A stretch of 64,000 nucleotides of DNA from Alphaproteobacteria bacterium (GTDB lineage Bacteria > Pseudomonadota > Alphaproteobacteria > Ferrovibrionales > Ferrovibrionaceae). The stretch spans positions 186,001 through 250,000 of the forward strand of contig JAFKFH010000003.1 of the NCBI GenBank assembly GCA_017307375.1. Direction: 5' to 3'. Below, one piece after another: positions 1,121 to 36,700 of this stretch. The translations under genes and the position numbers were made by a program. The notes under the pieces were generated by a model. It saw nothing but the letters and a program-made list of their open reading frames with translations. It ran no database searches and was not told where the DNA came from. Position 1 is the first letter of the stretch; every line of letters begins with the position of its first letter.

Positions 1121-1765
1121 CTACCAGCGCAGCAGCCGGCCGCCGGCCCAGGCCCCGAGGCTGGCGACCAGCAGGATCGCCGGGATATGCCAGGCGGCGA
1201 TGAACATCAGCGAGCCTTCCGGGCAGTGCAGCGTGTACATCGCCGCGGCGAATCCGCCCGCGGCCAGGCCGGCCATCGCGCCGGTCGCCCGGGGCCGCGC
1301 CGGCGCGCCGCGCCGCAGCGCCAGCAGCATGCCGCCCAGCATCGGCAGCGACAGCAGGAAGACACAGGCGAGACAGGCCAGCGGCTGATCGCCCACCAGC
1401 CGCTGCCACCAGCCGCCGGTGCCGGCACGCGCCAGCTCGACCACGATGCCGCCGGCCATCAGCAGCGCGGGGATCACCGCCCAGCCGGTCCGCAGCCGCG
1501 CCTCGGGCCGGGCGGCCGCCGCCACGGCCGCGAGCGCGCCGGCACCGAGCAGACCGGCCGCCGCCACCGTGGTGCCCAGCGTCAGGCCCAGGCCATGGGC
1601 CAGATGCGGGCTGCGCGCCAGGCCGAACCAGATCACGGCGAAGGACGGAACGGCCATCACCGCGGTCGCCAGGACCAGGTCGGCCCAAAGCGGCCGCAGC
1701 GCGTTACGGGGCGACATGCCATCCAGATCGGCGGCGAGCGCCCGGATCAGATCGTCGGTCTTCAT
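1121..1765 (-). CDS. nrsF: NrsF/DUF1109-type anti-sigma factor
   Basis: A 214-residue membrane protein with about six hydrophobic segments. The N-terminal MKTDDLIRALAAD and the late LHCPEGS...WH motif are hallmarks of the DUF1109/NrsF family, whose members hold a cognate ECF sigma factor at the inner membrane. Conserved cysteines (CLAC, HCPEGS) may sense metal or redox stress, as proposed for Caulobacter NrsF. The gene overlaps the upstream sigma factor by four bases (ATGA), so the two are translationally coupled. Family assignment comes from sequence pattern; the inducing signal here is inferred. Confidence 0.88.
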   Translation of the reverse strand: MKTDDLIRALAADLDGMSPRNALRPLWADLVLATAVMAVPSFAVIWFGLARSPHLAHGLGLTLGTTVAAAGLLGAGALAAVAAAARPEARLRTGWAVIPALLMAGGIVVELARAGTGGWWQRLVGDQPLACLACVFLLSLPMLGGMLLALRRGAPARPRATGAMAGLAAGGFAAAMYTLHCPEGSLMFIAAWHIPAILLVASLGAWAGGRLLRW

Positions 1766-2325
1766 TTGAACTTGTCCCAGTCCCCGAACATCACGGTCAG
1801 CGCCGCCAGCCCCCGGTGCAGCGCCACATAGACCGCGCCGCGCGACAGGTTGAACCGGTGCGCGGTCTCGGCCACGCTGGCCCCGTCGACGGCGAGGGCC
1901 GTGACCACCTCGCGCTGCCGCGACGGCAGGGCGGCCAGAAAGCGCTCGACCGGCGCGGCCATCTCGGGCGCAGCCACCGACAGGGTGTCGGCCACATCGT
2001 CCAGCGGGACTTCTCCCCGGCTGCCGCGGCGGCGCACGATATCGACCGCCTTGTGCCGGGCGATCGCCCGCAGCCAGGGCAGGAACGGCCGGCCCGGGTC
2101 CCAGGTATGGCGCTTGAGATGAACGGCGAGCAGGGTTTCCTGCACCACGTCCTCGACGTCGCGCGCCTCCAGGCCGGTGCGCCGCAACGCCGTCGCGGCA
2201 AAGACACGCAGGGTCGCCGCGACCTCGGCCAGCAGCCGGGCATAGGCCGCGGCATCACCGCCGCGGGCGGCCAGCATCGCCGCCGCCCATCTCGCCTCCC
2301 GCCCGTCTTCCCCGCCGTTCAGCAC
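1762..2325 (-). CDS. sigF: ECF RNA polymerase sigma factor
   Basis: A 187-residue ECF sigma factor. Region 2 includes DVEDVVQETLLAVH and WDPGRPFLPWLRAIARHKAVD; region 4 includes LPSRQREVV and a helix-turn-helix SVAETAHRFNLSRGAVYVALHRG. It starts at GTG 2325 and overlaps the anti-sigma gene, the classic regulator pair. It resembles Caulobacter SigF (ECF16-type), which responds to metals and oxidants. The symbol is by analogy. Across the intergenic region a long operon containing an MsrP-like Mo enzyme runs the other way and carries an ECF-like promoter. No matching promoter was seen for the sigma gene itself. Confidence 0.88.
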   Translation of the reverse strand: MLNGGEDGREARWAAAMLAARGGDAAAYARLLAEVAATLRVFAATALRRTGLEARDVEDVVQETLLAVHLKRHTWDPGRPFLPWLRAIARHKAVDIVRRRGSRGEVPLDDVADTLSVAAPEMAAPVERFLAALPSRQREVVTALAVDGASVAETAHRFNLSRGAVYVALHRGLAALTVMFGDWDKFK

Positions 2326-2363: not shown

Positions 2364-2389
2364 GTAAGATCCGCCGATCCTAGACCGAA
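2364..2389 (+). promoter_or_regulatory. Candidate ECF sigma promoter for the 2458-8735 operon
   Basis: The sequence has GTAAGA at 2364-2369, a 16-base spacer, then CGAA at 2386-2389. I recall GTAACC-N16-CGAA as the Caulobacter SigF promoter; the match here is GTAA, the spacing and CGAA, with two -35 bases differing. It points at the gene beginning at 2458 and would give a leader of about 60 bases. The function is inferred. Confidence 0.5.
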
Positions 2390-2457
2390 CCGGGAAGAGA
2401 GGCCGCTCACGATCGAGCGACCACAGGAATATTTTCGATGTCACGGGGGCTCGGCGC

Positions 2458-3246
2458 ATGGCTGAACGGACGTCCGACTGGAGCTGCGCGATCGCGGTGA
2501 TGGCCAAGGCTTCGGCACCGGGCCGCACCAAGACGCGGCTGACGCCGCCGCTGACCCCGGACCAGGCGGCGGCCTTCAATACCGCGTTCCTGCAGGATAT
2601 CGCCGCCAATCTGCTGGCCGCCTCGCAGTCCGCGCCGATCGCCGGTTACATGGCCTACGGCCCGCCGGGCAGCGCGGGCTTCTTCCGCCGCCGCCTGCCG
2701 CCGGCGATCGGCCTGATGGAAGTCTGGCAGGCGAATTTCGGCGATTGCCTGCACCAGACCATCCGCGACCTGCTGGCCCGCGGCCACGACGCGGCCGTGG
2801 TGCTGAACGCCGACAGCCCGACGCTGCCGACCGCACTGCTGGTCGAGGCGGCGGACTGGCTGGCCCGTCCCGGCGATCGCGCGGTGCTGGGACCGGCCGA
2901 GGACGGCGGCTACTACCTGCTGGGCCTGAAGGCGCCGCATCGCCGCATGTTCGAGGACATCGACTGGAGCACCGAGCGCGTGGCCGGCCAGACCCTGGCC
3001 CGTGCCCGCGAAATCGGCCTGGACGTCCATATCCTGCCACCCTGGTACGACGTCGACGATGCCGCGGCGCTGCGCCGCCTGCATGACGAGTTGTTCGCCG
3101 GCGCCGCGCCGGATCCGGGCCCGGGCCCTGCCCCGCATGACGCGGTCCATACCGCCGACCTGATGATGGCGCTGGGCCTTGCCATGTTCAATACGCCGCC
3201 GGGCCGGGCGGGCGCAGAAAGGATTCCCAATGTCGTCGCTGTCTGA
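2458..3246 (+). CDS. DUF2064 (TIGR04282-type) glycosyltransferase
   Basis: A 262-residue GT-A-fold nucleotide-sugar transferase of the DUF2064 family. The N-terminal AVMAKASAPGRTKTRLTPPL is the nucleotide-binding loop; VVLNADSPTLPTALL carries the metal-binding acidic motif; GPAEDGGYYLLGL is another family signature. Database models often name this family 'arsenosugar biosynthesis glycosyltransferase', but no ArsM or arsenic gene lies nearby, so that role is not supported here. It is the first gene of a seven-gene operon and overlaps the next start by 17 bases. The ATG at 2458 follows a GGGGG ribosome site. Confidence 0.85.
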   Translation: MAERTSDWSCAIAVMAKASAPGRTKTRLTPPLTPDQAAAFNTAFLQDIAANLLAASQSAPIAGYMAYGPPGSAGFFRRRLPPAIGLMEVWQANFGDCLHQTIRDLLARGHDAAVVLNADSPTLPTALLVEAADWLARPGDRAVLGPAEDGGYYLLGLKAPHRRMFEDIDWSTERVAGQTLARAREIGLDVHILPPWYDVDDAAALRRLHDELFAGAAPDPGPGPAPHDAVHTADLMMALGLAMFNTPPGRAGAERIPNVVAV

Positions 3247-4285
3247 GCCACTGCCCGATCCGCGGCGCTATTTCGCGGCCGTCGGCCGCGACCGCACCGC
3301 CGAGCGGCCGGTCTGCCTCTATCTGGAGACCACCAATCGCTGCAACCTGCTGTGCACCACCTGCCCCCGCACCTATGCCGAACTGGAGCCGCCGGCGGAC
3401 ATGAGCTGGCCCTTGTTCACCCGGATCGTCGACCAGATCCCCGGGCTGCAGCGGGCGGTGCTGCACGGGGTCGGCGAACCGATGCTGGTCAAGGACCTGC
3501 CCCGCATGGTCGCCTATCTGAAGGCGCGGGGCACCTACGTGCTGTTCAACACCAACGGCACGCTGCTGAACGAACGCAACGGCCGCGCGCTGATCGAGGC
3601 CGGGCTGGACGAGTTGCGCGTCTCGTTCGACGCTGCCGACGCCGAGACCTACAAGGCGATCCGCGGCAAGGACTTCTTCCGGCGGATCCTGCGCAACGTC
3701 GCTGCCTTCCGCGACCTGCAGCGGCGCGAAGGCCATGCGCGGCCGCGCGTCTCGGCGTGGCTGACCGGGCTGCGCGAGACCGTGGCCGACCTGCCGGCCT
3801 TCGTCCAGGTCGCGGCCGATGCCGGGGTCGAGGAAGTCTATCTGCAACGCCTCGTCTTCTTCGAGGACGATGCGATCGGGCGCGCGCGCCCCGACCAGGC
3901 GTTGTACGAACGGCTGACGCGGGAAGAGGCCGGGCATATCGAGGCGGCGACCGCGCTGGCCAGGCGGCTCGGCCTGACCTTCAGCGCATCCGGTGCCGCG
4001 TCCGAGCCCGGGTTGAGCCTGCAGCGCGCCGACGACGGGTCGCCCTGGTCGTCCTGCCGCCGGCCCTGGTCGGTCATGTACATCACCGCCAACGGCCGCG
4101 CCCTGCCTTGCTGCATCGCGCCGTTCTCGCAGCGCGGCTATGAAAACTACACGCTGGGCGACGCGACCCAGGCAAGCTTGCGCGAAATCTGGGAGGGACC
4201 GGCCTATGCCGCCTTCCGCGCCGCCCTGGCCTCCGACACCCCGCCGCCGGCCTGCGCCGGCTGCGGCCAGCGCTGGAGCCTCTAG
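3230..4285 (+). CDS. Radical SAM/SPASM-domain protein
   Basis: A 351-residue radical SAM enzyme. The cluster motif CNLLCTTC (CxxxCxxC) near residue 38 binds the catalytic 4Fe-4S cluster; GVGEPML is the glycine-rich SAM-binding strand. Later cysteines in SSCRRPW, LPCCIAPFS and a terminal CAGCGQRW fit an auxiliary SPASM cluster. The substrate is unknown; SPASM proteins modify peptides, sugars or nucleotides. I chose ATG 3230, preceded by AAAGGA, over an earlier in-frame ATG at 3179 that would overlap the upstream gene more deeply. It ends one base before the GT2 start. Confidence 0.87.
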   Translation: MSSLSEPLPDPRRYFAAVGRDRTAERPVCLYLETTNRCNLLCTTCPRTYAELEPPADMSWPLFTRIVDQIPGLQRAVLHGVGEPMLVKDLPRMVAYLKARGTYVLFNTNGTLLNERNGRALIEAGLDELRVSFDAADAETYKAIRGKDFFRRILRNVAAFRDLQRREGHARPRVSAWLTGLRETVADLPAFVQVAADAGVEEVYLQRLVFFEDDAIGRARPDQALYERLTREEAGHIEAATALARRLGLTFSASGAASEPGLSLQRADDGSPWSSCRRPWSVMYITANGRALPCCIAPFSQRGYENYTLGDATQASLREIWEGPAYAAFRAALASDTPPPACAGCGQRWSL

Positions 4286-4286
4286 C

Positions 4287-4976
4287 ATGGCCGCGCCGGT
4301 CATCGCCGTGGCGATCCCGACCCTGAACGAGGCCCAGTCGATCGGTCAGGTCGTCGCCGAAATCCCCCGCGCCGCCGTCACCCGCATCATCGTCGCCGAT
4401 GGCGGCAGCACCGACGGCACCCCCGAACTCGCCCGGCATGCCGGTGCCGAGGTGATCGCCGCCGGTCGCGGCTACGGCCGCGCCTGCCTCGCCGCCGCGC
4501 AACGGGCCGGGGATGCCGAGATCGTCGTCTTCATGGACGGCGACGGCGCCGACGATCCGCGGCACATCGCCGACCTGGTCGCACCGATCGCCGACGGCAG
4601 CCGCGACTTCGTCATCGGCTCGCGGGTGCGGGGCCGCCGCGAACCGGGCAGCATGGGCTGGCACCAGATCGCGGCGGGGCTTGCCGCCGGCTGGGCGATC
4701 GGCGGGCTGTACGGGGTGCGCTACACCGACATGGGCGCCTTCCGCGCGATCCGGCGCGATGCCCTGCTGGCGCTGGGCATGCGCGAGATGACCTATGGCT
4801 GGAACATCGAGATGCAGATGCGGGCGGCGCGCCGCGGCCTGCGCATCGCCGAGATCCCGGTATCCTGCCGGCGGCGCATCGGCGGCACCTCGAAGGTTGC
4901 CGGCAGCCTGGGCGGCAGCCTGCGTGCCGGCAGCCGGATCGTGACCACCTTCGCCCGCATCGCGGTGACCGCATGA
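4287..4976 (+). CDS. GT2 glycosyltransferase, DPM1/polyprenyl-phosphate type
   Basis: A 229-residue family 2 glycosyltransferase. VAIPTLNEAQSIGQVV, IIVADGGSTDGT, FMDGDGADDP (DxD) and the RRRIGGTSKVAG segment are typical of dolichyl- or polyprenyl-phosphate sugar synthases, which load a nucleotide sugar onto a lipid phosphate at the cytoplasmic face. It lacks the C-terminal membrane helices of some relatives. ATG 4287 was chosen because it directly follows the upstream stop; the upstream frame extension has no independent support. Its product could feed the GT-C-like membrane protein at the end of the operon (inference). Confidence 0.87.
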   Translation: MAAPVIAVAIPTLNEAQSIGQVVAEIPRAAVTRIIVADGGSTDGTPELARHAGAEVIAAGRGYGRACLAAAQRAGDAEIVVFMDGDGADDPRHIADLVAPIADGSRDFVIGSRVRGRREPGSMGWHQIAAGLAAGWAIGGLYGVRYTDMGAFRAIRRDALLALGMREMTYGWNIEMQMRAARRGLRIAEIPVSCRRRIGGTSKVAGSLGGSLRAGSRIVTTFARIAVTA

Positions 4977-5374
4977 GGCCGCTCGTCGCCGCCCTGCTGC
5001 TGCTGGCCGCGACGACCGCCCAGGCGCAGACGGCACAGGAAAAGATGCAGCGCCGCTTTCCCCAGCCGGTGCGCGTCGGCGACCTGGTGGGGTTGCCCGT
5101 GCTCGACGAACGCGACGTCACGATCGGCCGGATCAGTCAGGTCGTCCGCGACGATCGGGGCAACATCCTGCTGATCCTGCCCTACGGCGACTGGGCGACC
5201 TGGCGCAAGCGCCCGGTCGCCGTGCCCGTCGAAGTCGTCGCGATGCTGGGCCGCCAGGTCGCGGCGATCGACATGCCGCGTGCCGAGTTCGACAAGGCGC
5301 CGGATTGGACAGACCGACCCGCGGCAGTGCTTGGCCCGGACGATGTCATCCGGGTCGCCCTGACCCGCCGCTGA
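4973..5374 (+). CDS. Periplasmic PRC-barrel-like protein
   Basis: A 133-residue secreted protein: an N-terminal signal peptide (MRPLVAALLLLAATTAQAQ, cleavage near residue 19) is followed by a small beta domain. VGDLVGLPVLDERDVTIGRISQVVRDDRGNILLIL resembles a PRC barrel, a fold often used for protein contact or for gauging redox partners. It overlaps the GT2 gene by four bases (ATGA) and precedes the cytochrome gene by 13 bases. Its role may be structural within the neighbouring Mo-enzyme system; this is inferred from position only. Confidence 0.7.
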   Translation: MRPLVAALLLLAATTAQAQTAQEKMQRRFPQPVRVGDLVGLPVLDERDVTIGRISQVVRDDRGNILLILPYGDWATWRKRPVAVPVEVVAMLGRQVAAIDMPRAEFDKAPDWTDRPAAVLGPDDVIRVALTRR

Positions 5375-5387
5375 GAGGCCGCTTGCG

Positions 5388-5993
5388 ATGACGCGACAGA
5401 TGCACCCGCCCGCCATCCGGATCATGCACTGGCTGAACGCGCTGGCGATGCTGGTGATGGTGACGAGCGGCTGGAAGATCTACGAGGACGAGCCGCTGTT
5501 CGGCACGGTGCGCTTTCCCGATGCGATCACGCTGGGCGGCGAGGCGCAGGGTGCGCTGCAATGGCACTACGCCGGCATGTGGCTGATGGTCGCCAACGGC
5601 CTCGCCTATGTCGCCTACGGCCTGGCGACCGGCCGGTTCCGCCGGCTGCTGCTGCCGATCCGGCCGGGCGAGTTGCTGGCGACCTTGCGTGACGCGCTGC
5701 GCCTGCGCCTCGGCCATGACGACCTCACCCGCTACAACCCGGTGCAGAAGGCCATGTATGTCGGCGTGCTGGCGATCGGATTCGTCCAGGTGATCTCGGG
5801 GCTGGCGATCTGGAAGCCGGTGCAGTTCGCCGAACTGACCCTGCTGTTCGGCGATTTCCAGGGCGCGCGGATCGCCCATTTCGTCGGCATGATGGCGATC
5901 GTGCTGTTCGTCTTCGTCCACGCGACCCTGGCGCTGATCGTGCCGCAGACGCTGCGCGCGATGCTGACCGGCAATCCCGGAGGATCACGATGA
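5388..5993 (+). CDS. Cytochrome b561-type membrane subunit
   Basis: A 201-residue protein with four hydrophobic helices. Histidines in PPAIRIMHWLNALAM, ALQWHYAGMW, ARIAHFVGMM and FVFVHATLAL are placed to bind two hemes, as in the di-heme cytochromes b of the Ni/Fe-hydrogenase and thiosulfate-reductase group. It overlaps the following Mo-enzyme gene by four bases, so it is very likely the quinol-linked electron partner of that enzyme, a role analogous to MsrQ, though it is not an MsrQ (FRD-type) sequence. It is inserted in the inner membrane. Confidence 0.85.
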   Translation: MTRQMHPPAIRIMHWLNALAMLVMVTSGWKIYEDEPLFGTVRFPDAITLGGEAQGALQWHYAGMWLMVANGLAYVAYGLATGRFRRLLLPIRPGELLATLRDALRLRLGHDDLTRYNPVQKAMYVGVLAIGFVQVISGLAIWKPVQFAELTLLFGDFQGARIAHFVGMMAIVLFVFVHATLALIVPQTLRAMLTGNPGGSR

Positions 5994-6772
5994 CCAAGCC
6001 CCCATCGGCCTCGCGCTTCCGGCCGGCGCGGCGCCTCGCCAGCCTGTCGGACCATGGCGGTCTCGTCGCCGAGATCGACCGGCGCCGGTTGCTGCGCGGC
6101 GGCTTCAGTCTCGGCGCGCTGGCGATGCTGACCGGCTGCGACGTCACCGACAACGACGCGGTCCAGCGGGGCTTGCGCGCGGTGTCGCGCTGGAACGACC
6201 GGGTTCAGGCCGCGCTGTTCCGGCCGGACAAGCTGGCCCCGACCTACGACCGCGCCCAGGTCGTCAAACCCCCGCGCTTCAATGCCTATTACGGTATCGA
6301 GGATGTCGAACCGGTCGACGGCGCGGCCTGGCGGCTGGAACTGGCCGGGCTGATCGGCGACCGCCGCCCCTGGACGCTGCGCGAGATCAATGCGCTGCCG
6401 GCGCAAACCTGGATCTATCGGCATGTCTGCGTCGAGGGCTGGGACTATATCGGCCAGTGGTCGGGTCCGAACTTCCGCCTGTTCCTGGAACGGATCGGGG
6501 CGGACCTGACCGCGAAATACGTGGCCTTTCGCTGCGCCGACGGCTACACCGGATCGATCGACATGCCGAGCGCCCTGCACCCGCAGACCATCCTGGCGAC
6601 CGGCTATGCCGACGAGCCGATCGCCGATCCGTTCGGGTACCCGCTGCGGCTGCGCACCGCCGTCAAGCTCGGTTTCAAGAACCCGAAATGGATCACCGCG
6701 ATCGAAGTGACCAACAGCTATCCGGGCGGCTATTGGGAGGATCGCGGATTCAACTGGTTCAGCGGTCTCTGA
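5990..6772 (+). CDS. Sulfite-oxidase/MsrP-like molybdopterin oxidoreductase
   Basis: A 260-residue Mo-cofactor enzyme of the sulfite-oxidase fold. The N-terminal region holds DRRRLLRGGFSLGALAML, a Tat-like twin-arginine stretch, then LTGC, which could be a lipobox, so the protein may be a Tat-exported lipoprotein. HVCVEGWDYIGQWSGP contains the conserved molybdenum-ligating cysteine, and the C-terminal half keeps FRCADGYTGSIDM and KLGFKNPKWI. MsrP (YedY) repairs oxidised periplasmic methionines with a membrane cytochrome; here the cytochrome gene is directly upstream. The exact substrate is not determinable. Confidence 0.85.
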   Translation: MTKPPSASRFRPARRLASLSDHGGLVAEIDRRRLLRGGFSLGALAMLTGCDVTDNDAVQRGLRAVSRWNDRVQAALFRPDKLAPTYDRAQVVKPPRFNAYYGIEDVEPVDGAAWRLELAGLIGDRRPWTLREINALPAQTWIYRHVCVEGWDYIGQWSGPNFRLFLERIGADLTAKYVAFRCADGYTGSIDMPSALHPQTILATGYADEPIADPFGYPLRLRTAVKLGFKNPKWITAIEVTNSYPGGYWEDRGFNWFSGL

Positions 6773-6788
6773 TTGCGTCGACGACCCG

Positions 6789-8735
6789 ATGCCCGCGATC
6801 GCGCCGACGCTGATCGCGGGGATCGGGCTGGTGGTGCTGTGGACGGCGATCGGCCTGGGTCCTGCCCGGCGGATCGCTGCCCCCGCCCTGGCGCCGGCCC
6901 TGGCGCCGGTGCTGGGCTGGGCGGTGCATGCCGCCCTGGCCCTGCCCTGGTGCCTCGTTGCCGGCTGGTCGGTCTGGAGCGTCGCGGGCCTCGCCGCTGG
7001 CCTCGCTTTGGCCGGGCTGGCCCTGGCCCGTCGGACAGGCGCGGCACCGGCGGACGGCCCGCCGGCGGTTCCGGGCTGGATCTGGGCGGCCGCCCTGCTG
7101 GTGGCGCTGGCGATCGGGAACGCCGTGCTGCCCAAGGCCGACGGCGACGGCATCGTCCTCTCGGCCCCGATCTTCGACCATGCCAAGGTCGCCATCGTCG
7201 ACGAAATCAGGCGCTCGGGCCTGCCGCCGGGCAATCCGGTCTTCGGCGACGGTCCCGAACCCGGCCGGCTGGCCTACTATTACCTCTGGCATGCCGAGGC
7301 CGCGGGCCTGGCGCTGGTGACCGGGCTGAGCGGCTGGGAGGCCGACGCGGCGCTGACCGGGGCCACCGCCTTTGCCTCGCTGATGCTGATGGCGGGCCTG
7401 GCCACCGGGCTGGCGCGCCGGCGCTCGGCCGCGGGCTGGACGGTTGCGCTGGCGCTGGCCGGGTCGTTGCGCCCGGTTCTCGGACTGGTCTGGGCGGCCC
7501 GGGATCTCGATGCCGTGCTGCGGCCGGCGACCGGGCTGGGCGCCTGGATCTTCCAGGCGGGCTGGGCGCCCCAGCATGTGATGTCGGCGTCGGTGATCGT
7601 ACTGGCCATGCTGCTGCTGGCCCGGCTGGCGACCCGGCCCGACCCGGCGGGCGCCGCACTGCTCGCCTTGGTGGCGGCGGCCGGGTTCGGATCGTCGACC
7701 TGGATCGGCGGCCTGACCTTGGCGGCGGCGGTGCTGGGGGCTGCCCCGATCCTGGCCTGGCGGTCGCCGCCGGGGCGGCGGCCCGGTTTCGTGCGCGATG
7801 GCCTGCTGGCCGCCACCGGCGCCCTGCTGCTGGCCTGGCCGCTGCTGCACGACCAAGCAGCAGCAGCGGCCGCCCGCGAGATCGCCGGCCCGGTCGGCAT
7901 TCGCCCCTACCCGGTGCTCGGCCCCGCCATGCCGGCGTTCCTCGATCCGGCGGCCTACTGGCTGGTGCTGCTGCCGGTCGAGTTTCCGGCCATCGTCCTG
8001 ACCGGCGGCTGGGCGCTCGTGCGGCGCGTGCGGCGCGGCGCACCGCTGGTGATCGCGCTGGCCGCGCTGACCGCCGCCGGGCTGATGCTGGCCTGGCTGG
8101 GGCAGAGCCGGATCGGCGACAACAACGACCTGGCCTGGCGCGCCGCCCTGCCGGCCGTGCTGGTGCTGACGGCGGCGGCGGCGGCGGCACTGTCCGACCT
8201 GATCGCCGCCCGGGCCCGGATCGCGGCGCTGGCGGGGCTGGCCGCGCTGGCCCTCGGCCTTGTCGACGGCCTGCTCGACCTGCACGGCTATGCCACCGCC
8301 GGCGGCGCGGTTTCGCGCGATTTCGCCACGGACGAGGCGATGTGGCAGGCGGTGCGCCGCCATGCCGGTCCTGACGATCGGGTCGCATCGAACCCGCTGC
8401 TCGAGGCGGGGCTGACGCCCTGGCCGGTGAATATCTCCTGGGCCCTGCTCGGCAACCGGCGCGCCTGCTTCGCCGGGCGGGAGATGGCGCTGGCCTTCGC
8501 CGCGCTGCCGGCCCCGCGCCGGGACGCGATCGACGACCGCTTCCGCCGGATCTTCGCCGGCTTCGCATCGCCGGCCGACATCGACGCCCTGTTCCGGGAT
8601 TACGGTTGCCGGGTAGTGCTGGTCACGGCGCGCGACGGTGCCTGGCTGCGCGATCCCTTTGCCGCCAGTTCCGATTACCGCCTGGTCGAAACGCGCCCCG
8701 GGGCCTGGCGGATCTACGCGCCCGCGGATCGCTGA
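6789..8735 (+). CDS. Polytopic membrane protein, GT-C-like
   Basis: A 648-residue protein with about 11-13 hydrophobic segments. After the third segment lies a loop with IFDHAKVAIVDEIRRSGLPPGNP and RLAYYYLWHAEAAG, the pattern seen in GT-C glycosyltransferases that take sugars from polyprenyl phosphate, where the acidic residue is catalytic. The C-terminal region (about 520-648) is soluble and probably periplasmic. As last gene of the operon, 16 bases after the Mo enzyme, it could use lipid-linked sugar made by the GT2 at 4287. The GT-C call rests on pattern only; it could be a non-enzymatic membrane protein. Confidence 0.65.
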   Translation: MPAIAPTLIAGIGLVVLWTAIGLGPARRIAAPALAPALAPVLGWAVHAALALPWCLVAGWSVWSVAGLAAGLALAGLALARRTGAAPADGPPAVPGWIWAAALLVALAIGNAVLPKADGDGIVLSAPIFDHAKVAIVDEIRRSGLPPGNPVFGDGPEPGRLAYYYLWHAEAAGLALVTGLSGWEADAALTGATAFASLMLMAGLATGLARRRSAAGWTVALALAGSLRPVLGLVWAARDLDAVLRPATGLGAWIFQAGWAPQHVMSASVIVLAMLLLARLATRPDPAGAALLALVAAAGFGSSTWIGGLTLAAAVLGAAPILAWRSPPGRRPGFVRDGLLAATGALLLAWPLLHDQAAAAAAREIAGPVGIRPYPVLGPAMPAFLDPAAYWLVLLPVEFPAIVLTGGWALVRRVRRGAPLVIALAALTAAGLMLAWLGQSRIGDNNDLAWRAALPAVLVLTAAAAAALSDLIAARARIAALAGLAALALGLVDGLLDLHGYATAGGAVSRDFATDEAMWQAVRRHAGPDDRVASNPLLEAGLTPWPVNISWALLGNRRACFAGREMALAFAALPAPRRDAIDDRFRRIFAGFASPADIDALFRDYGCRVVLVTARDGAWLRDPFAASSDYRLVETRPGAWRIYAPADR

Positions 8736-12049: not shown

Positions 12050-13303
12050 CTACAGGTTCAGGATGCCGCGGAAATGGTCCGAGACCTTGCGCATCTGGGT
12101 CTCCCAGTCGCCGTGTTCGCCGCCGATGGTGTCGATCGCGCCCTGCCGCAGCGGGGCGAAATCGTCGTAGCGCTCGATCGCCTCCCCGACCTTGGCCGCC
12201 AGCACGCTCGCGATCGGCGGGGCCAGCAAGCAGTTCTCGCCGTCGCGCAGCAGAAAGCCCGAGACCGGGTTGTGATTGGTGATCAGCAGGCAGCCCGACG
12301 CCATCAGCTCGAACGGCAGGTAGGACGGATGCCGGGTCATCATCAGCGTCAGCCCGATATGGCAGGACCGGTAGAGGTCGCCGGTGCCGGCATAGCTGAG
12401 CATGTTCAGGTTGGTGACGATCCCCTCGAGCCCGTGTTCGGCCGGGTTCCAGCCGGCCCCGGCGCAGAGCAGCTCGACCCGGTCGCCATGGCGCGCCTTG
12501 ACCCGGCGCAGGGTCGCGGCCAGCAGCTCGAACGCATTGCGCGGATGGCCCGGCCGGGCATAGGAGAACACGCGGATCCGGTCGCTGCCGCGGCGATTGT
12601 CGGGGACCGGGGCGTGGAACACCGACGGTTCGATCGCCGGCATGAACGAGATCGCCTCGCCGCCGAAATCGCGGCGATAGATCGCGGCGAGCTGGTCGGT
12701 GTTGGTGATCGCACGATAGCCGAAGCGGTAGGTCGCCTCGACCAGCGCCGAGATCGTGCCGGCCGGATAGAACAGCGGCTCGTAGTCCTGGATGAAATAG
12801 TACTTGAAGGCGCTGTTGCGCACCCGGGCCAGCGTGAAGGCGGTGGTCCACAACGTGGCGATCGACACGGTCGCGTCCGGTATCGCCTGCAGCTTGGCGA
12901 TGCTGTCGAGGGTGTCGACCTCGACGTCGGCGAGATCGGGAAAGACCGAGACGATCGACTGCCGCAGGGCCGCGGCGTCGCCCTGGCCGCAGATCAGGAA
13001 ACGCTGGCGCATGCCGAGGGTGCGGCGCAGATGGGCGGCGCACCGGACGATCGTGCGGGCGCCGCCATAGGCGACGTTGTCGAGCGGCGGGATGTACCAG
13101 GCGCAGACCGGCGGCGACAGCCGCCCGGCCAGTTCCGGCTGCTGCTGGGGCGCCGCCAGATCCTCGGGCAGCAGGTCCATGACGTCGGCCAGCGCCCGGG
13201 CATCGTGCACGTAGGCATCCTGCCGCGGCACGAAGGGCGCGAAATGCGGCGCCAGGCGCGGGGCGATGCGGTTGAAGAGCAGTCGGGCCGTATGTTTCAG
13301 CAT
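12050..13303 (-). CDS. WsaF-like glycosyltransferase family 1/4 protein
   Basis: A 417-residue GT-B-fold glycosyltransferase. The region VCAWYIPPLDNVAYGGARTIVR and the later TNLNMLSYAGTGDLYRSCHIGLTLMMTRHPSYLPFELMASGCLLITNHNP pattern are typical of WsaF-like rhamnosyltransferases, in which the late E of LPFELMASG lies in the nucleotide-sugar site. It probably adds a deoxyhexose to the exported glycan. ATG 13303 is preferred to GTG 13330, which lacks a ribosome site. It lies 33 bases downstream of the permease gene, in the same operon as Wzm and Wzt. Confidence 0.82.
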   Translation of the reverse strand: MLKHTARLLFNRIAPRLAPHFAPFVPRQDAYVHDARALADVMDLLPEDLAAPQQQPELAGRLSPPVCAWYIPPLDNVAYGGARTIVRCAAHLRRTLGMRQRFLICGQGDAAALRQSIVSVFPDLADVEVDTLDSIAKLQAIPDATVSIATLWTTAFTLARVRNSAFKYYFIQDYEPLFYPAGTISALVEATYRFGYRAITNTDQLAAIYRRDFGGEAISFMPAIEPSVFHAPVPDNRRGSDRIRVFSYARPGHPRNAFELLAATLRRVKARHGDRVELLCAGAGWNPAEHGLEGIVTNLNMLSYAGTGDLYRSCHIGLTLMMTRHPSYLPFELMASGCLLITNHNPVSGFLLRDGENCLLAPPIASVLAAKVGEAIERYDDFAPLRQGAIDTIGGEHGDWETQMRKVSDHFRGILNL

Positions 13304-13336
13304 CGTTCGATCCGTTGATGGGGCCGGCACGCCGCG

Positions 13337-14161
13337 TCAGATGACGTCGGCGAAGCCCTTCTTGGTCTTGAGAAACCAGACAAGGCCGATCCAGGCCACC
13401 GCGTAGCCGACCACCAGCTGGCGGACGAGGGCGAGCCAGTCGGGCCATTTGCCGAAGATCAGGCAATCGCGCGTCGCCTCGATCGCCGGGGCGATCGGGT
13501 TCAGGTCGACCGCCCAGAGATAGTCCGGCGGGATGGCCGACGACGGGTAGAAGATCGGCGTGAGGAACATCAGCCCGGTGGTGAGGAGGGCCACCAGCTG
13601 CTTGATGTCGCGCAGGAAGACCCCCAGCGAGGCGAGGATCCAGGTAAGGCCGAGCGTGATCAGGACCAGCGGCAGCACGGTCAGCGGCACGGCGAGCGCG
13701 CTGAGCGGCGGCAGGCCGACCAGCCACAGATGGGCCAGCAGCAGCACGGCAAAGGCGATCAGGGCGTTGAACCCGGCCTGCAGCGCCGCTACCCAGGGCA
13801 TGATTTCCAGCGGGAACACCACCTTCTTCACATAGGCGACGTTCTCGAGCACCAGGCCGGGCGAGCGCGTCACGCATTCGGCGAAGAAGTTGAACAGGAT
13901 CAGCCCGGTGAACAGGATCAGCGCGAAATGCCCGGTGCCGGCCTGTTCGGGCACGGTCCAGCGCACCGGAAAGATCACCCCGAACATGAAGGTGTAGATC
14001 GCCAGCATGATCAGCGGCGTCACCACCGTCCAGGCGGCGCCGAACAGCGTGCCGGTATAGCGCGCGGCGATCTCGCGGCGCACCAGCCGCGAGACCAGCG
14101 AACGGTCGCGCCAGAGCACGGCGACAACCTCGGACGGTGCCAGGCGTGGACGTGCATTCAT
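13337..14161 (-). CDS. wzm: ABC-2 polysaccharide export permease (Wzm)
   Basis: A 274-residue inner-membrane permease with six hydrophobic segments. The N-terminal SLVSRLVRREIAARYTGTLFGAAWTVVTPLIMLAIYTFMFG is the signature of ABC-2 transporters for O antigen, capsule or teichoic acid. It forms the channel that moves an undecaprenol-linked polymer across the inner membrane, powered by the ATPase encoded upstream (14216-15529). The gap to that gene is 54 bases and to the glycosyltransferase 33 bases, so the three are one minus-strand operon. Confidence 0.92.
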   Translation of the reverse strand: MNARPRLAPSEVVAVLWRDRSLVSRLVRREIAARYTGTLFGAAWTVVTPLIMLAIYTFMFGVIFPVRWTVPEQAGTGHFALILFTGLILFNFFAECVTRSPGLVLENVAYVKKVVFPLEIMPWVAALQAGFNALIAFAVLLLAHLWLVGLPPLSALAVPLTVLPLVLITLGLTWILASLGVFLRDIKQLVALLTTGLMFLTPIFYPSSAIPPDYLWAVDLNPIAPAIEATRDCLIFGKWPDWLALVRQLVVGYAVAWIGLVWFLKTKKGFADVI

Positions 14162-14215
14162 CGGATCAACATCGCTTGCGAAGGAAACAGGACGGCGGGC
14201 AGGGCGCGCAACGGA

Positions 14216-15529
14216 TCACGCCCCGTCGACGGACATGGTGACGTCGAGCATCGGCACCCCGATCAGCCCGCGGCCGTGATCGGCATGGCTGACCCGGAAG
14301 AACATCGCGTCGTGCAGCCACTGGTGCTGGACGTGATCGGCCAGGGTGCCGTCGGCGATCGCCGCCGAGACGGCATAGTCGCCGTTTTCGAGGAACGGCA
14401 GGACGAAGCGGAACGAGGCGGAGACGGTATCGCCCGGCTGCGCCGAGCGCGGCGCCCGCGGATGGCTGCTGAAGGTGTTGCGGTTGAACAGCACCTGGCC
14501 CAGCCGGTCCTTGACGATGAAGCCGAGGATCGGGTTCTGCAGTTCGGTCGCGACCTGGGCGCGGATCGTCAGCTCGACTTCCTCGCCGCCTTCGAGGCTG
14601 GCGCCGGCGGCCGCGTCGACGGCCTGCAGCGTCACCGAGACGATCCGGGCGCCGCCCTGCCCGAAACCGGCGCTGTCGGGGTCGAAGTCGAAGACCTCGA
14701 CCCGTGGCGGCGCCGGGTTGTTGACCGCCGCCGCCGGGGTCGGCAGCGCCCGGCGCTGATGGTTGGCGAAGCGCAGCGAGGCGCCGCCGTCGGCCTCGGC
14801 GTAGATCGAGGCCAGATAGGCCTCGACCACCTCGCGCGGCTCGCCCTCCATGCGGACGTGGCCGGCATCGAGCCAGATGACCCGGTCGCAGAGCCGCGCC
14901 ATCGCGCCGGTATCGTGGCTGACGAACAGGATGGTGCCGCGCTTGCGGAAGCCTTCGATGAAGCGCATGCATTTCTGGGTGAAGGCGGCGTCGCCGACCG
15001 ACAGGATCTCGTCGATGATCAGGATGTCGGCATCAACATGGGCCGCCACGGCGAAGGCGAGCCGTGCATACATGCCGCTGGAATAGAACTTGACCGGCTG
15101 GCCGAGGAAGTCGCCGATGCCGGCGAAGTCGATGATCGAGTCATAGCGTTCCTCGATCTTCTCGGGCGACAGGCCGAGCAGGGAGGCGGCCAGCCGGACG
15201 TTCTCGGCCCCGGTGAACTCCGGATTGAAGCCGGCCCCCAGTTCGAGCAGGGCGGCGATGCGGCCGTTGCGCACGACTTCGCCGGTGGTCGGCTCGACCG
15301 TGCCGGTGACCATCTGCAGGAAGGTCGACTTGCCGGCGCCGTTGCGCCCGATGATGCCGATGCTCTCGCCCCGCGCGATCGTCAGGTCGACGTCGCGCAG
15401 CGCCCAGTATTCGTCGTAGAGACGCCGCTGGCCGCGCCAGAACATCTGCAGCAGACGGTCGATCGGCCGACGGTAGATCGCATAGCATTTGCCTAGCCGG
15501 CTTGCGGCCAGCACCGGTTCGCCGGACAT
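14216..15529 (-). CDS. wzt: Polysaccharide ABC transporter ATPase with C-terminal glycan-binding domain (Wzt)
   Basis: A 437-residue ATPase. Walker A GRNGAGKS is at residues 61-68, the signature YSSGMYARLAF about 149-159, Walker B ADILIIDE about 167-174 and the switch histidine in FVSHD near 205. Residues about 280-437 form the extra Wzt C-terminal beta-sandwich domain that, in E. coli O8/O9a, recognises the methylated non-reducing end of the polymer before export. Its presence implies that a terminal modification is needed, which fits the methyltransferases at 8878 and 15697. Confidence 0.92.
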   Translation of the reverse strand: MSGEPVLAASRLGKCYAIYRRPIDRLLQMFWRGQRRLYDEYWALRDVDLTIARGESIGIIGRNGAGKSTFLQMVTGTVEPTTGEVVRNGRIAALLELGAGFNPEFTGAENVRLAASLLGLSPEKIEERYDSIIDFAGIGDFLGQPVKFYSSGMYARLAFAVAAHVDADILIIDEILSVGDAAFTQKCMRFIEGFRKRGTILFVSHDTGAMARLCDRVIWLDAGHVRMEGEPREVVEAYLASIYAEADGGASLRFANHQRRALPTPAAAVNNPAPPRVEVFDFDPDSAGFGQGGARIVSVTLQAVDAAAGASLEGGEEVELTIRAQVATELQNPILGFIVKDRLGQVLFNRNTFSSHPRAPRSAQPGDTVSASFRFVLPFLENGDYAVSAAIADGTLADHVQHQWLHDAMFFRVSHADHGRGLIGVPMLDVTMSVDGA

Positions 15530-33729: not shown

Positions 33730-36700
33730 TTAGTCATAGCCGTATTCATGCAAACTTTTCGGAAGACTGATCGACGGCTTTATTGGCGAATGCGCTCGAT
33801 TTTTTGTGGTCGTATTTACGATCGCCCTTATGATCCCTGCGGCTTCTAGTTCGAGAGGGATTACGGTGCCGAATTGCGCCGCGCGCACCCTCTCAGCGGG
33901 CGCACCTATATCGGTTACTATCGGCCACAACCCGATCATCAAGCAGTAACTTAGAGTATAGGAAAATGTCTCCGGCACTTGATTAAGAAACAGGGCCACA
34001 TCGGGCGCATGTTTTTCAATTAGAAACCGAAGATCTTTCTCTTCGTATTTTCCCGTTATTTGAACATTTCTTTTGTTATTTATTATAGAATCCTTCATGG
34101 TGTAGCCGAATACCACAAATTCAATAGGAGTATCCCCGCTTACTGCCAAATCAATACATTCAACCAGCTGGTGAAATCCTTTAATGTCGCTTATCGCGCC
34201 AAACACGCCGACACGTATTTTCCCGGCTTGATCCCTGCGCATTACTAAAGGGTGGTACTCCGCTTCCTCCGGCAGGGGATGAGCGATCACTCGATAGTTC
34301 CCCTGGAAACCGTGACGCTCCAGGCGTTCTTTCACGTCATTCGCGCCACAAAAGACCCGGCCAGCGCTTGCAACAACCCGCGCGAGGTTCGCACGATAGA
34401 GCCCTACGTCAAATCCCGCACGACGGACTAAATCTCTCGCACCACGATGGGGTTCGTTTATTCGGACACAAGCGTTACAATTTTGAAGATCTTCGCCGCA
34501 ATAGACTCCTTTGTCTACGTATAGATGCACTCTCGGACATGTCCATGAGTAATCGTGTATTGAAATGTCATAGTCTCTTCCCGAAATCCAATCGAATAAT
34601 TTCTGATTCATATTGAGGGGCGAATGAACAAATATCTTCTGAAATCCCAGCTGTTCGAGATCTTTCAGAAGCTGCGATATGTCTCCGGCGCCGTATTCCT
34701 CGTTGTGATCGTCAAGAAATAGCCCATCGAGGTTATTCCCGGCCAATCTGAACGAAAGCCTGACATCGCCTTCTTTGCCGGATCGCAGAATCGCGACGCC
34801 CCCGCCCTCGGCCTCGATCAACGCGCATATATCATTCACATATTTTTCTGTGCCCCCGCCGAAGTCGTGTACGAGATGCAGAAATCGCTTTTTCGGCAAA
34901 AGACCATCTAAAAGTTGGTATGCAATCCTGCGGCGAAGCGGGCGTAGCGGGTCAGTAGATATGAACCGGTGGACCAGATCATCAAAGAACGGGTATAATT
35001 TTGATATTTCTTTACTATTCTCGAAGATAAGCTTTTTCTTTTCTTCTCCGAAAGAAACACCACCTCGATGGACGACAAAGATGTCGCCAGCAACTACGTT
35101 TCTCCAACCGCGCGCTGCAGCCTTCAGGCAGAAGTCAACCTCCTCGCCATATCCGCGACCCCACTTCGCTGCGTCGAGGAGTCCGATTTCGTTTATTGCC
35201 TTCCGTCGGACGAAGAGGCAGAAACCGACACCGACCGGTATATCCCGCACTTCGCCCTTGTTCTTCTGGGCTGCCGTCTGATCCACGAGTGCAGCAATCG
35301 TGGAAGATTGCACGGGAAGCGACTTACAGATGTAGGGAAATGTGCATATTTCTCCGTTATTGGAAAGCGGCGTGACGGTCGCAATTCGATCGTCAGTCGC
35401 AGCGGCGCTGGTTAGCCTGTCGAGCCAATTGTCTTGGACAACCGTATCTGAGTTTAGGATCACTGCATCGTTGGAGCCGGACACGATGAGGCCGATATTG
35501 ACCGCCTCGGAAAAACCGCCATTTTTGTTGCGATGTAATATCAGCACGTTATCATTTTTTTCGATAGAATCCAGATATTTTATAATAATCGGATCATTTG
35601 AGGAGTCATTTACTATGATTACTCTATGATTAGTGCCGTTCTTTACTGAAAGAACAGATTCTATGCATTCGACGGTTTCTAATGCTCCCGCATATACAGG
35701 GATGACAACATCTACTCCAAATTGATCACTATCGATCGATCCAGAGGAAGATTTTCGGAAGTGATATATCACATCGTCTTTTGAACTGGATATGAGCTGA
35801 ATTAACGCGGGCGCTAAAATCTCCTGTGCATTTAAGTGATCTTGTTTTGCCGCGTACCGCGCCAGAGCGGTTAGCGCATCGTATCGGTAGCCGATCCAGA
35901 TCTGACCTATGGGCAAATCGAGTTCGTTATCCCTTATCTCGAAGTTCTTCCCCGCCTTGCCGCCCCATTTCGGCAGCGAGAACTTGAAGCCACACCGGCC
36001 GCTGGATAAACATAATTCCTTCTGTACGTCATTGCGATCCAGATCTGCCGTCACAGTAGCGATCAGATTGCCGCAATCATAAAGGCCGAGATCGACGGGC
36101 CGCTCATCTCTTAATTTAACGACCCAACCCGAAATACTTTCGAAATTAGCCGATTCTATTTCTATAGCGTACTCTTCTCTATGCCACAAAATAACGTCAC
36201 TTCGTAAAACAATCCCCGATCCGTCTCTGAAAACAGCCTGACATGCGTTAATTCTATTTTTTAATAGATCATTCCGGCTACTCCATACACCCGAAACACG
36301 ATCATCTTCGTCTTTTTGGAGAACGACGCTATCAATCGATACGCCGTTGACTAGCAGTTCGGCGACCGCACTGGTCCCAGGCCATCCCCGCAATTCTACC
36401 AAGAGTTCGCCGCCGCGACCGCGTGCGATCAGGAGAGTGGCGTCGCTGGACCAGTCCAACGTCTTCGAGCCGCCACCCAAAGGTTGACCATCAATGGCGA
36501 TGGAGACCTCATGCATCAAGCTGCTGAACGCTGACGACGGTATTGAAATGTTGAAGCCACTGCGTCCCTTCGATATTCCGGCACTGATAAGATCGGGTCT
36601 AATTATGTCAGTCGGCCGTGAAACAACCGCGACTCCATCCACTAAAACATCAACCGTGACAGGCACGTCGGGGGCGCTGCGCTTCATCGCCCAACCGGAG

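Follow-up and report, generated by a model that had tools for sequence, protein, structure and literature searches.

The described system closest to the one treated here is the capping of mycobacterial lipoarabinomannan (LAM) with methylthioxylose. There, MtxS makes the lipid-linked sugar and MtxT transfers it (PMC8780516); the pathway starts from 5'-methylthioadenosine (MTA), not from phosphoribosyl pyrophosphate (PRPP), and methylthioxylose-type modification outside LAM assembly was called unclear in 2024 (PMC11127046). The system treated here is a seven-gene operon in a 64,000-nucleotide stretch of DNA (hereafter, the window; contig JAFKFH010000003.1) from the genome (G000) of a soil-type alphaproteobacterium. 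The operon encodes: (i) a DUF2064 nucleotidyltransferase-like protein; (ii) a radical SAM/SPASM enzyme; (iii) a GT2 glycosyltransferase; (iv) a PRC-barrel protein; (v) a cytochrome b; (vi) an MsrP-like molybdenum (Mo) enzyme; and (vii) a membrane protein resembling GT-C glycosyltransferases. The first three genes are hereafter called the core. Genes for an extracytoplasmic function (ECF) sigma factor and an NrsF-like anti-sigma factor lie divergent from the operon.

The operon is read here as an ECF/NrsF-controlled pathway which would attach a 5-substituted pentose, most likely a 5-methylthio-pentose, to a glycan of the periplasm or surface and keep its sulfur reduced (rough probability, 0.45). 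The broader statement, namely lipid-linked periplasmic glycosylation under ECF control, is held to be quite likely, while the specific version, in which the sugar is a methylthio-pentose and is repaired by the Mo enzyme, is put forward tentatively.

An earlier note on this DNA, made from the sequence alone, knew of no described pathway with this set of genes. On comparison, the GT2/GT-C part closely resembles the methylthioxylose pathway, with its decaprenyl-phosphate-linked sugar made by MtxS (Rv0539) and its transferase MtxT (Rv0541c). Both systems, likened by description and not by sequence, would combine a polyprenyl-phosphate-sugar synthase, extracytoplasmic transfer by a GT-C protein and an MTA-derived sugar. 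In contrast to the mycobacterial pathway, the clusters described here have a radical SAM/SPASM enzyme, an MsrP-like/cytochrome b or DoxD/SelD module, ECF/NrsF control and Gram-negative hosts. The mycobacterial Rv0540 is presumably a DUF2064 protein.

Two other types of sugar pathway share features with the operon. Three-component pentofuranose systems (polyprenyl phosphoribose synthase, flippase and a GT136 GT-C protein) also rely on a lipid-linked pentose and an extracytoplasmic GT-C protein, but the operon has DUF2064 and GT2 genes instead of a UbiA-type phosphoribosyltransferase; a Pfam search of its seven proteins gave no UbiA match. Arsenosugar biosynthesis (ArsM, ArsS, TIGR04282, TIGR04283) has in common with the window a TIGR04282 protein over its cut-off. 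By contrast, the radical SAM protein of the window is of the SPASM type and not ArsS, its GT2 protein reaches 48.1 bits against the TIGR04283 cut-off of 182, and ArsM is missing. The ArsS-type family TIGR04167 (cut-off, 300) is absent from the best 25 of 46 families, the 25th of which has 34.5 bits. Although the name of TIGR04282 suggests it, a plain arsenosugar reading was discarded for the window, ArsS and ArsM being missing. As a separate observation, two related clusters (L170 and L171) bring together an MTA phosphorylase, an ArsM-like methyltransferase, a TIGR04282-type protein, an AglJ-like GT2 protein and a GT87-like protein, which looks as though lipid linkage extended to an arsenosugar there.

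Regarding control, the Caulobacter sigF (ECF16) regulon resembles the operon in its ECF sigma factor, NrsF-family anti-sigma factor, Mo enzyme target and promoter motif. The Brucella BcrS/AbcS system, with MsrX and MsrPQ, also has an ECF sigma factor, an NrsF-family anti-sigma factor and a Mo enzyme target, besides a sacrificial thioether partner. Here, the thioether would be carried by a glycosylation pathway in place of a methionine-rich peptide.

Probable lipid-linked sugar transfer and conservation of the gene set

The earlier note proposed that the GT2 and GT-C proteins form a pair which loads a sugar on a lipid and then transfers it in the periplasm. This proposal is supported by the likeness of the GT2 protein, the predicted fold of the GT-C protein and the co-occurrence of the genes. 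The GT2 protein resembles the dolichol-phosphate mannose synthase 5mlz (E 1.5e-6) and obtains 122.8 bits with the AglJ model, below its cut-off of 325. The seventh protein has no Pfam match even at E 10. Its predicted model (predicted template modelling score, pTM, 0.83; mean predicted local distance difference test, pLDDT, 77.1) finds AftA as its top Foldseek match (E 3.3e-7), and VIA-align places it close to AglB (Z 19.0 over 449 residues), ArnT (17.8 over 451) and AftD (15.2), with an oligosaccharyltransferase also within 19.0-15.2; this modelling supports a GT-C fold over most of its length. In Miltoncostaea (L148, 6705-8660), a GT87-like and a GT2 part are joined in one annotated gene, which supports the idea that both proteins act together.

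On plasmids, homologues of the window GT-C protein were found in nine rhizobial plasmids only (32-33% identity), all of which (9/9) also have a UbiA homologue. In pNGR234a, a single gene separates the two, and a small multidrug resistance (SMR) transporter and an epimerase are encoded nearby. Judged from gene content, this context fits a lipid-linked pentofuranose. A comparable case is the Nod-factor D-arabinosyltransferase NoeP, whose operon makes decaprenyl-phosphate-arabinose (PMC5080398). There, a transferase lies within a lipid-linked pentofuranose operon; here, the plasmid homologues lie in UbiA-containing regions, a parallel of context and not of compared sequences.

A contig scan yielded 282 confirmed relatives of the radical SAM enzyme. 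The counts out of 80 loci use the best (closest) 80 of these 282 and, in consequence, they are biased to near kin. Gene presence was scored by tblastn (E 1e-10), and matches below 35% identity (for the solute-binding and Rv1680-like proteins) or below 50% (for both radical SAM proteins) were dropped before counting. Genome tallies (n=52) cover the genomes of 50 of the 80 loci (35 of the 37 isolate loci and 15 metagenome-assembled genomes, MAGs), together with G000 and a second genome, G369; L092 (which shares its genome with L087) and L096 were left out of the isolate tallies.

The earlier note had named the absence of the gene set from other genomes as a finding that would refute its proposal. 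Instead, the core is kept: DUF2064 and GT2 genes are each present in 77 of the 80 loci. Less frequent are cytochrome b (31), MsrP-like (30) and PRC (24) genes, together with those for a nucleoside phosphorylase (34) and a DoxD-like membrane protein (36). The radical SAM orthologue itself is rare, as among 385 genomes of the class it occurs only in the window genome and G369, at a threshold of at least 64-65% identity, and in the order-level search only in the window genome (1/18). Between the enzyme and 14 relatives, identity is 66-77%, and the CxxxCxxC and SPASM cysteines are invariant. All seven genes share one orientation only where the arrangement is window-like; at other loci, the Mo/cytochrome/PRC/GT-C block often diverges from the core or converges on it.

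Two parts of the set vary between loci. The two types of GT-C protein are interchangeable: the protein is of the window type in 16 loci and of the unrelated GT87 type in 54, never of both, and neither type was found in ten (three of these loci, L037, L092 and L102, are 17-21 kb long and the others 4.5-11.2 kb). Three changes of the GT-C label suffice to fit the radical SAM tree, compared with 15.5 for shuffled labels. As for the redox modules, 29 loci have the MsrP-like gene only, 35 the DoxD-like gene only, 15 neither and one both. In this last locus (L091), the cytochrome b/MsrP-like, core, phosphorylase, DoxD, SelD and ATP-binding cassette (ABC) genes lie together. Since the GT-C types never meet and the redox modules nearly exclude each other, it appears that parts are swapped and that the system needs a single lipid-sugar transferase and, in most cases, a single redox module.

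The MsrP-like label of the earlier note stands with regard to the Mo family but not to MsrP proper: the enzyme scores 68.4 bits with NF003767 (cut-off, 207) and, in place of MsrQ, has a cytochrome b561 as partner. It carries a twin-arginine motif followed by a lipobox (RRRLLRGG..LTGC) and a cysteine of the Mo-ligand type; residues R31, R32, G49, C50 and C147 are invariant in 13 aligned sequences. Because motif and lipobox are invariant, the enzyme is probably a lipoprotein exported by the twin-arginine translocation (Tat) system. The cytochrome b gene adjoins the MsrP-like gene in 29 of 29 loci of the class search (one being the window's own). A close homologue (52-100%) occurs in 11 of 385 genomes, and the radical SAM orthologue is present in just two of these 11; in G369, the homologue lies on a different contig from the core. 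At three loci (L122, L123 and L128), the pair is accompanied by its own ECF gene, with no core gene within 1.5 kb on each side.

Other genes were also seen near the core. Bradyrhizobium-type loci (17/80; e.g., L082, 12088-12846, - strand) encode a methyltransferase-like protein with an N-terminal signal-peptide-like stretch, next to the DoxD-like gene. Genes for an Rv1681-family radical SAM protein, an Rv1679-like acyl-CoA dehydrogenase and an Rv1680-like binding protein were found near the core (e.g., L064, L165, L020, L148), namely in 18 of the 80 loci, in G369 and, weakly, in the actinobacterium Miltoncostaea. The uncharacterized mycobacterial Rv1679-Rv1681 genes may belong to the same chemistry.

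Promoter motif and probable ECF/NrsF control

The promoter reported in the earlier note as GTAA-N16-CGAA is present, although with another spacing: it reads GTAA-N18-CGAA or, with a six-base -35 box, GTAAGA-N16-CGAA. It differs from the published sigma-F site (GTAACC-N16-CGAA; PMC3511200) in nothing but the final two bases of the -35 box. Taken by itself, the window gives weak evidence, with 2 sites present where 0.40 are expected and 2 reached in 3 of 100 shuffles; the evidence becomes strong only across relatives. The second window site lies at 34453-34478 on the - strand.

In the 80 loci plus the window there are 60 GTAA-N18-CGAA sites, 40 of them within 330 bp upstream of cluster genes: DUF2064 (17), ABC binding protein (10), ECF (6), second radical SAM (3), PRC (2), cytochrome b (1) and GT-C (1). 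Control spacings from 8 to 28 gave 4-25 sites, with 0-3 before cluster genes. For DUF2064, the motif is found upstream of 17 of 77 sequences, against a mean of 0.27 (maximum 2) for 143 permuted-letter patterns and of 0.21 (maximum 2) for 34 other spacings. These 17 sequences are not independent events, since several are close kin; they span Xanthobacter, Sphingomonas, Roseomonas, Beijerinckiaceae and Hyphomicrobiaceae. All Xanthobacter loci with an ECF gene (6/6) have the motif both before DUF2064 and before the ECF gene. The anti-sigma factor is recognized as NrsF by PF06532, its score staying short of the equivalog NF042994. The stress-type ECF control suggested earlier is thus supported by a predicted promoter conserved before cluster genes in relatives. 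The pairs of L122, L123 and L128, whose genomes have no match to the radical SAM orthologue, are also found with a sigma-F-type motif.

The proposed sugar, its possible chemistry and competing explanations

The genes of related clusters, without which the link to MTA or to selenium genes cannot be seen, point to a 5-substituted pentose derived from MTA. Among solved structures, the nucleoside phosphorylase matches those of purine nucleoside and MTA phosphorylases, and an S-methyl-5-thioribose kinase (459.9 bits; cut-off, 275) is present in 7 of the 80 loci, all of them from Xanthobacter. MTA phosphorylase (MTAP) was found in 46 of the 52 genomes, including that of the window (G000:C37); the six genomes without it are the six Xanthobacter genomes with methylthioribose kinase, the seventh kinase locus (L069) being a MAG outside this tally. 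Moreover, plasmids of Kitasatospora and Arthrobacter combine DUF2064, GT2, methyltransferase, GT87-type protein, nicotinamide adenine dinucleotide (NAD)-dependent epimerase and Mo oxidoreductases with an MTA phosphorylase, which scores 445 bits in the former (cut-off, 306) and 283.7, below that cut-off, in the latter. Clusters without the radical SAM enzyme (L149-L151) have an NAD-dependent epimerase, which gave 0 matches in the 80 radical SAM loci. As the two genes do not co-occur in the clusters compared, the radical SAM enzyme is suggested to stand in place of the epimerase, and it is proposed to be a sugar epimerase or dehydrogenase.

The gene set, its conservation, the predicted GT-C fold, the exchange of the two GT-C types and the shared promoter are results of the analysis. 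The chemical steps, the sugar, the acceptor and the function are inferred, as follows: (i) a phosphorylase would split MTA to 5-methylthioribose-1-phosphate (the housekeeping MTAP in the window genome; in many related clusters, the in-cluster nucleoside phosphorylase, with or without methylthioribose kinase); (ii) the DUF2064 protein would activate the sugar-1-phosphate to a nucleoside diphosphate (NDP)-sugar; (iii) the radical SAM/SPASM enzyme would alter the sugar, probably epimerizing or oxidizing a carbinol carbon; (iv) the GT2 protein would load the sugar on polyprenyl phosphate; (v) the GT-C protein would transfer it outside the membrane, perhaps to a neighbouring ABC-exported polysaccharide; and (vi) when hypochlorite or metal stress oxidizes the thioether, the MsrP-like Mo lipoprotein, fed by the cytochrome b561, would reduce the sulfoxide. 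In this way, the glycan would act as an antioxidant that is sacrificed and renewed, which would suggest a carbohydrate counterpart of the system of sacrificial methionine-rich peptide and MsrPQ. The sulfoxide form of methylthioxylose occurs in LAM, and the title of one study is said to name a carbohydrate as a natural MsrA substrate.

Several points weigh against a methylthio-pentose pathway. The window's own cluster has neither MTAP nor phosphorylase, and the nucleoside phosphorylase of related clusters gave no match (E 1e-5) in the genome of the window. MTAP in 46 of 52 genomes is weak support, since it is a common housekeeping enzyme, and the complementarity of MTAP and kinase in Xanthobacter is probably one event in one genus. 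Because the two MTAP-bearing related clusters of arsenosugar type (L170, L171) carry arsenic-type methyltransferases, the substituent could be arsenic, and MTAP alone is no proof of sulfur. The cytochrome b/Mo pair may simply reduce proteins, since it occurs without the core. Finally, to our knowledge the methylthioxylose pathway has no radical SAM enzyme, and the structural neighbours of the predicted radical SAM model (mean pLDDT only 70.7) are SkfB (Z 19.5), DesII (19.4), SuiB and PqqE (both 18.4), BlsE (18.3) and BtrN (14.5). DesII is a sugar enzyme, and this comparison of models leaves sugar enzymes and maturases of ribosomally synthesized and post-translationally modified peptides (RiPPs) tied.

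That tie bears on the idea, judged improbable, that the radical SAM/SPASM protein matures a peptide or a metalloenzyme and that the glycosyltransferases glycosylate this modified peptide or the Mo enzyme. SkfB heads the structural list, the nearest sequence models are putative maturases, below their cut-offs (TIGR04317, 140.4 bits against 380; TIGR04311, 126.4 against 400), DoxX-type proteins occur in sigma-F operons elsewhere and the DoxD2 protein has a weak HvfX match. Nevertheless, DesII is level with SkfB, the apparent exchange with the epimerase argues for sugar chemistry, and no conserved small precursor was found among gene clusters of at least 90 aa, shorter open reading frames being outside that search. 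Another explanation, with roughly one chance in four, is that a single stress regulon unites two unrelated functions: oxidized proteins would be repaired by the Mo enzyme with cytochrome b, as by MsrPQ, and the core would add an ordinary lipid-linked hexose to the envelope. In its favour, many genomes have the pair on its own (at three loci next to an ECF gene of its own), a YedY/MsrP relative is known to be under sigma-F control where no such core exists, and ordinary mannose enzymes belong to the GT2 and GT87 families. Against it, 30 of the 80 loci link core and pair, in several orientations; Mo oxidoreductases also occur in actinobacterial DUF2064/GT2/GT87-type clusters; and a hexose leaves the phosphorylase, methylthioribose kinase, MTAP and DUF2064 protein unexplained.

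An explanation that is likewise doubtful, and somewhat more so, keeps the same core with selenium or arsenic as the heteroatom: selenophosphate or a methylated metalloid would react on a 5'-deoxyadenosyl unit, and the resulting selenosugar or arsenosugar would be lipid-linked and transferred. It draws on a sister version of the cluster in which genes for a DoxD-like protein, for SelD and for a 'selenate-type' ABC transporter are found, in most cases in place of the Mo enzyme (PhnE-like permease in 15 of the 80 loci, TIGR04553-type binding protein in 14, second radical SAM protein in 15 and methyltransferase in 11). SelD is present in 16 loci, always with the DoxD-like gene and in two forms at the same cluster site (L035, L100 and 14 others), namely stand-alone in Methylobacterium and fused to an NADH dehydrogenase elsewhere; both forms keep the active-site Cys and Lys. 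The binding protein is over its cut-off (344.8 bits; TIGR04553, 250) and has the promoter motif before it in 10 cases. In eight genomes (L048, L057, L075, L086, L091, L097, L100, L101) this is the single SelD, and neither SelA nor SelU was found in them; Methylobacterium nodulans is listed in one publication as an organism with SelD but no SelA or SelU. Arsenosugar-type clusters, for their part, share MTAP, TIGR04282-type and GT2/GT87-type genes. On the other hand, 24 of the 52 core-bearing genomes, some of them incomplete MAGs, have no SelD over cut-off (including most Bradyrhizobium and the window-type L066, L081, L088 and L094) and, hence, selenium is not needed for the core. In the window operon, no ArsM or ArsS family match exceeds its cut-off. 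The window genome does have a SelD, fused to an NADH dehydrogenase, but SelA lies about 7 kb away (G000:C12:233832-243008); the fusion probably serves selenocysteine, and as a selenium link to the operon it was dropped. TIGR04553 is not reached in the window genome (80.9 bits).

The methylthio-pentose pathway and its selenium counterpart could also descend from one ancestral pathway in which 5'-substituted deoxyadenosines are turned into renewable antioxidant glycans. The window would represent the version with methylthio-pentose and Mo enzyme, and the SelD version would make a methylseleno-pentose, as the consumer of selenophosphate in 'orphan SelD' bacteria; this extension is speculative and rather unlikely as a whole. 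If true, it would mean a new use of selenium, with a candidate selenium sink in organisms with SelD but without SelA or SelU, and a methylthio-sugar glycan pathway would for the first time be known from bacteria other than mycobacteria, none having been found in literature searches on the gene set with partial coverage of subscription journals. In addition, the question of methylthioxylose-type sugars outside LAM becomes testable in non-pathogenic Xanthobacter, Methylobacterium and Bradyrhizobium.

Operon layout and neighbouring genes

Gene coordinates bear out the seven-gene operon and its divergent ECF/nrsF genes as first described, and the family labels given then agree with profile searches, apart from the correction for the Mo enzyme. 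All seven genes are on the + strand, with three overlaps and gaps of at most 16 bases (Table 1).

Table 1. Coordinates in the window of the operon genes, the divergent regulatory genes and the predicted promoter.
Feature	Position	Strand	Remarks
nrsF-like membrane anti-sigma factor	1121-1765	-	PF06532 142 bits (gathering 26.8); NF042994 91.8 bits, below its cut-off of 300
ECF sigma factor, divergent from operon	1762-2325	-	NF009165 221.5 bits (cut-off 198)
Predicted sigma-F-type promoter GTAA-N18-CGAA	2364-2389	+	68 bases from DUF2064 start
DUF2064/TIGR04282 nucleotidyltransferase-like protein	2458-3246	+	PF09837; TIGR04282 149.5 bits (cut-off 134); one solved relative, 3cgx
Radical SAM/SPASM enzyme	3230-4285	+	PF04055, PF13186; overlaps DUF2064 gene by 17 bp
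GT2, polyprenyl-phosphate sugar synthase-like	4287-4976	+	PF00535; 1-bp gap after radical SAM gene
Small PRC-barrel protein, N-terminal signal-like stretch	4973-5374	+	PF05239 20.8 bits, narrowly missing cut-off of 21.2; 4-bp overlap with GT2 gene
Cytochrome b561 (Ni_hydr_CYTB)	5388-5993	+	PF01292 85.5 bits; 13-bp gap after PRC-barrel gene
MsrP-like Mo enzyme	5990-6772	+	PF00174 91.3 bits; 4-bp overlap with cytochrome b561 gene
GT-C glycosyltransferase, without Pfam family	6789-8735	+	Predicted fold; 16-bp gap after Mo enzyme gene

Downstream of the operon are genes for a methyltransferase/GT2 fusion, a WsaF-like glycosyltransferase and Wzm/Wzt-type ABC proteins. Because of the latter, the neighbouring ABC-exported polysaccharide is a possible acceptor of the glycosylation. 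The WsaF-like glycosyltransferase and the Wzm/Wzt-type polysaccharide exporter adjoin the operon at window positions 12050-15529.

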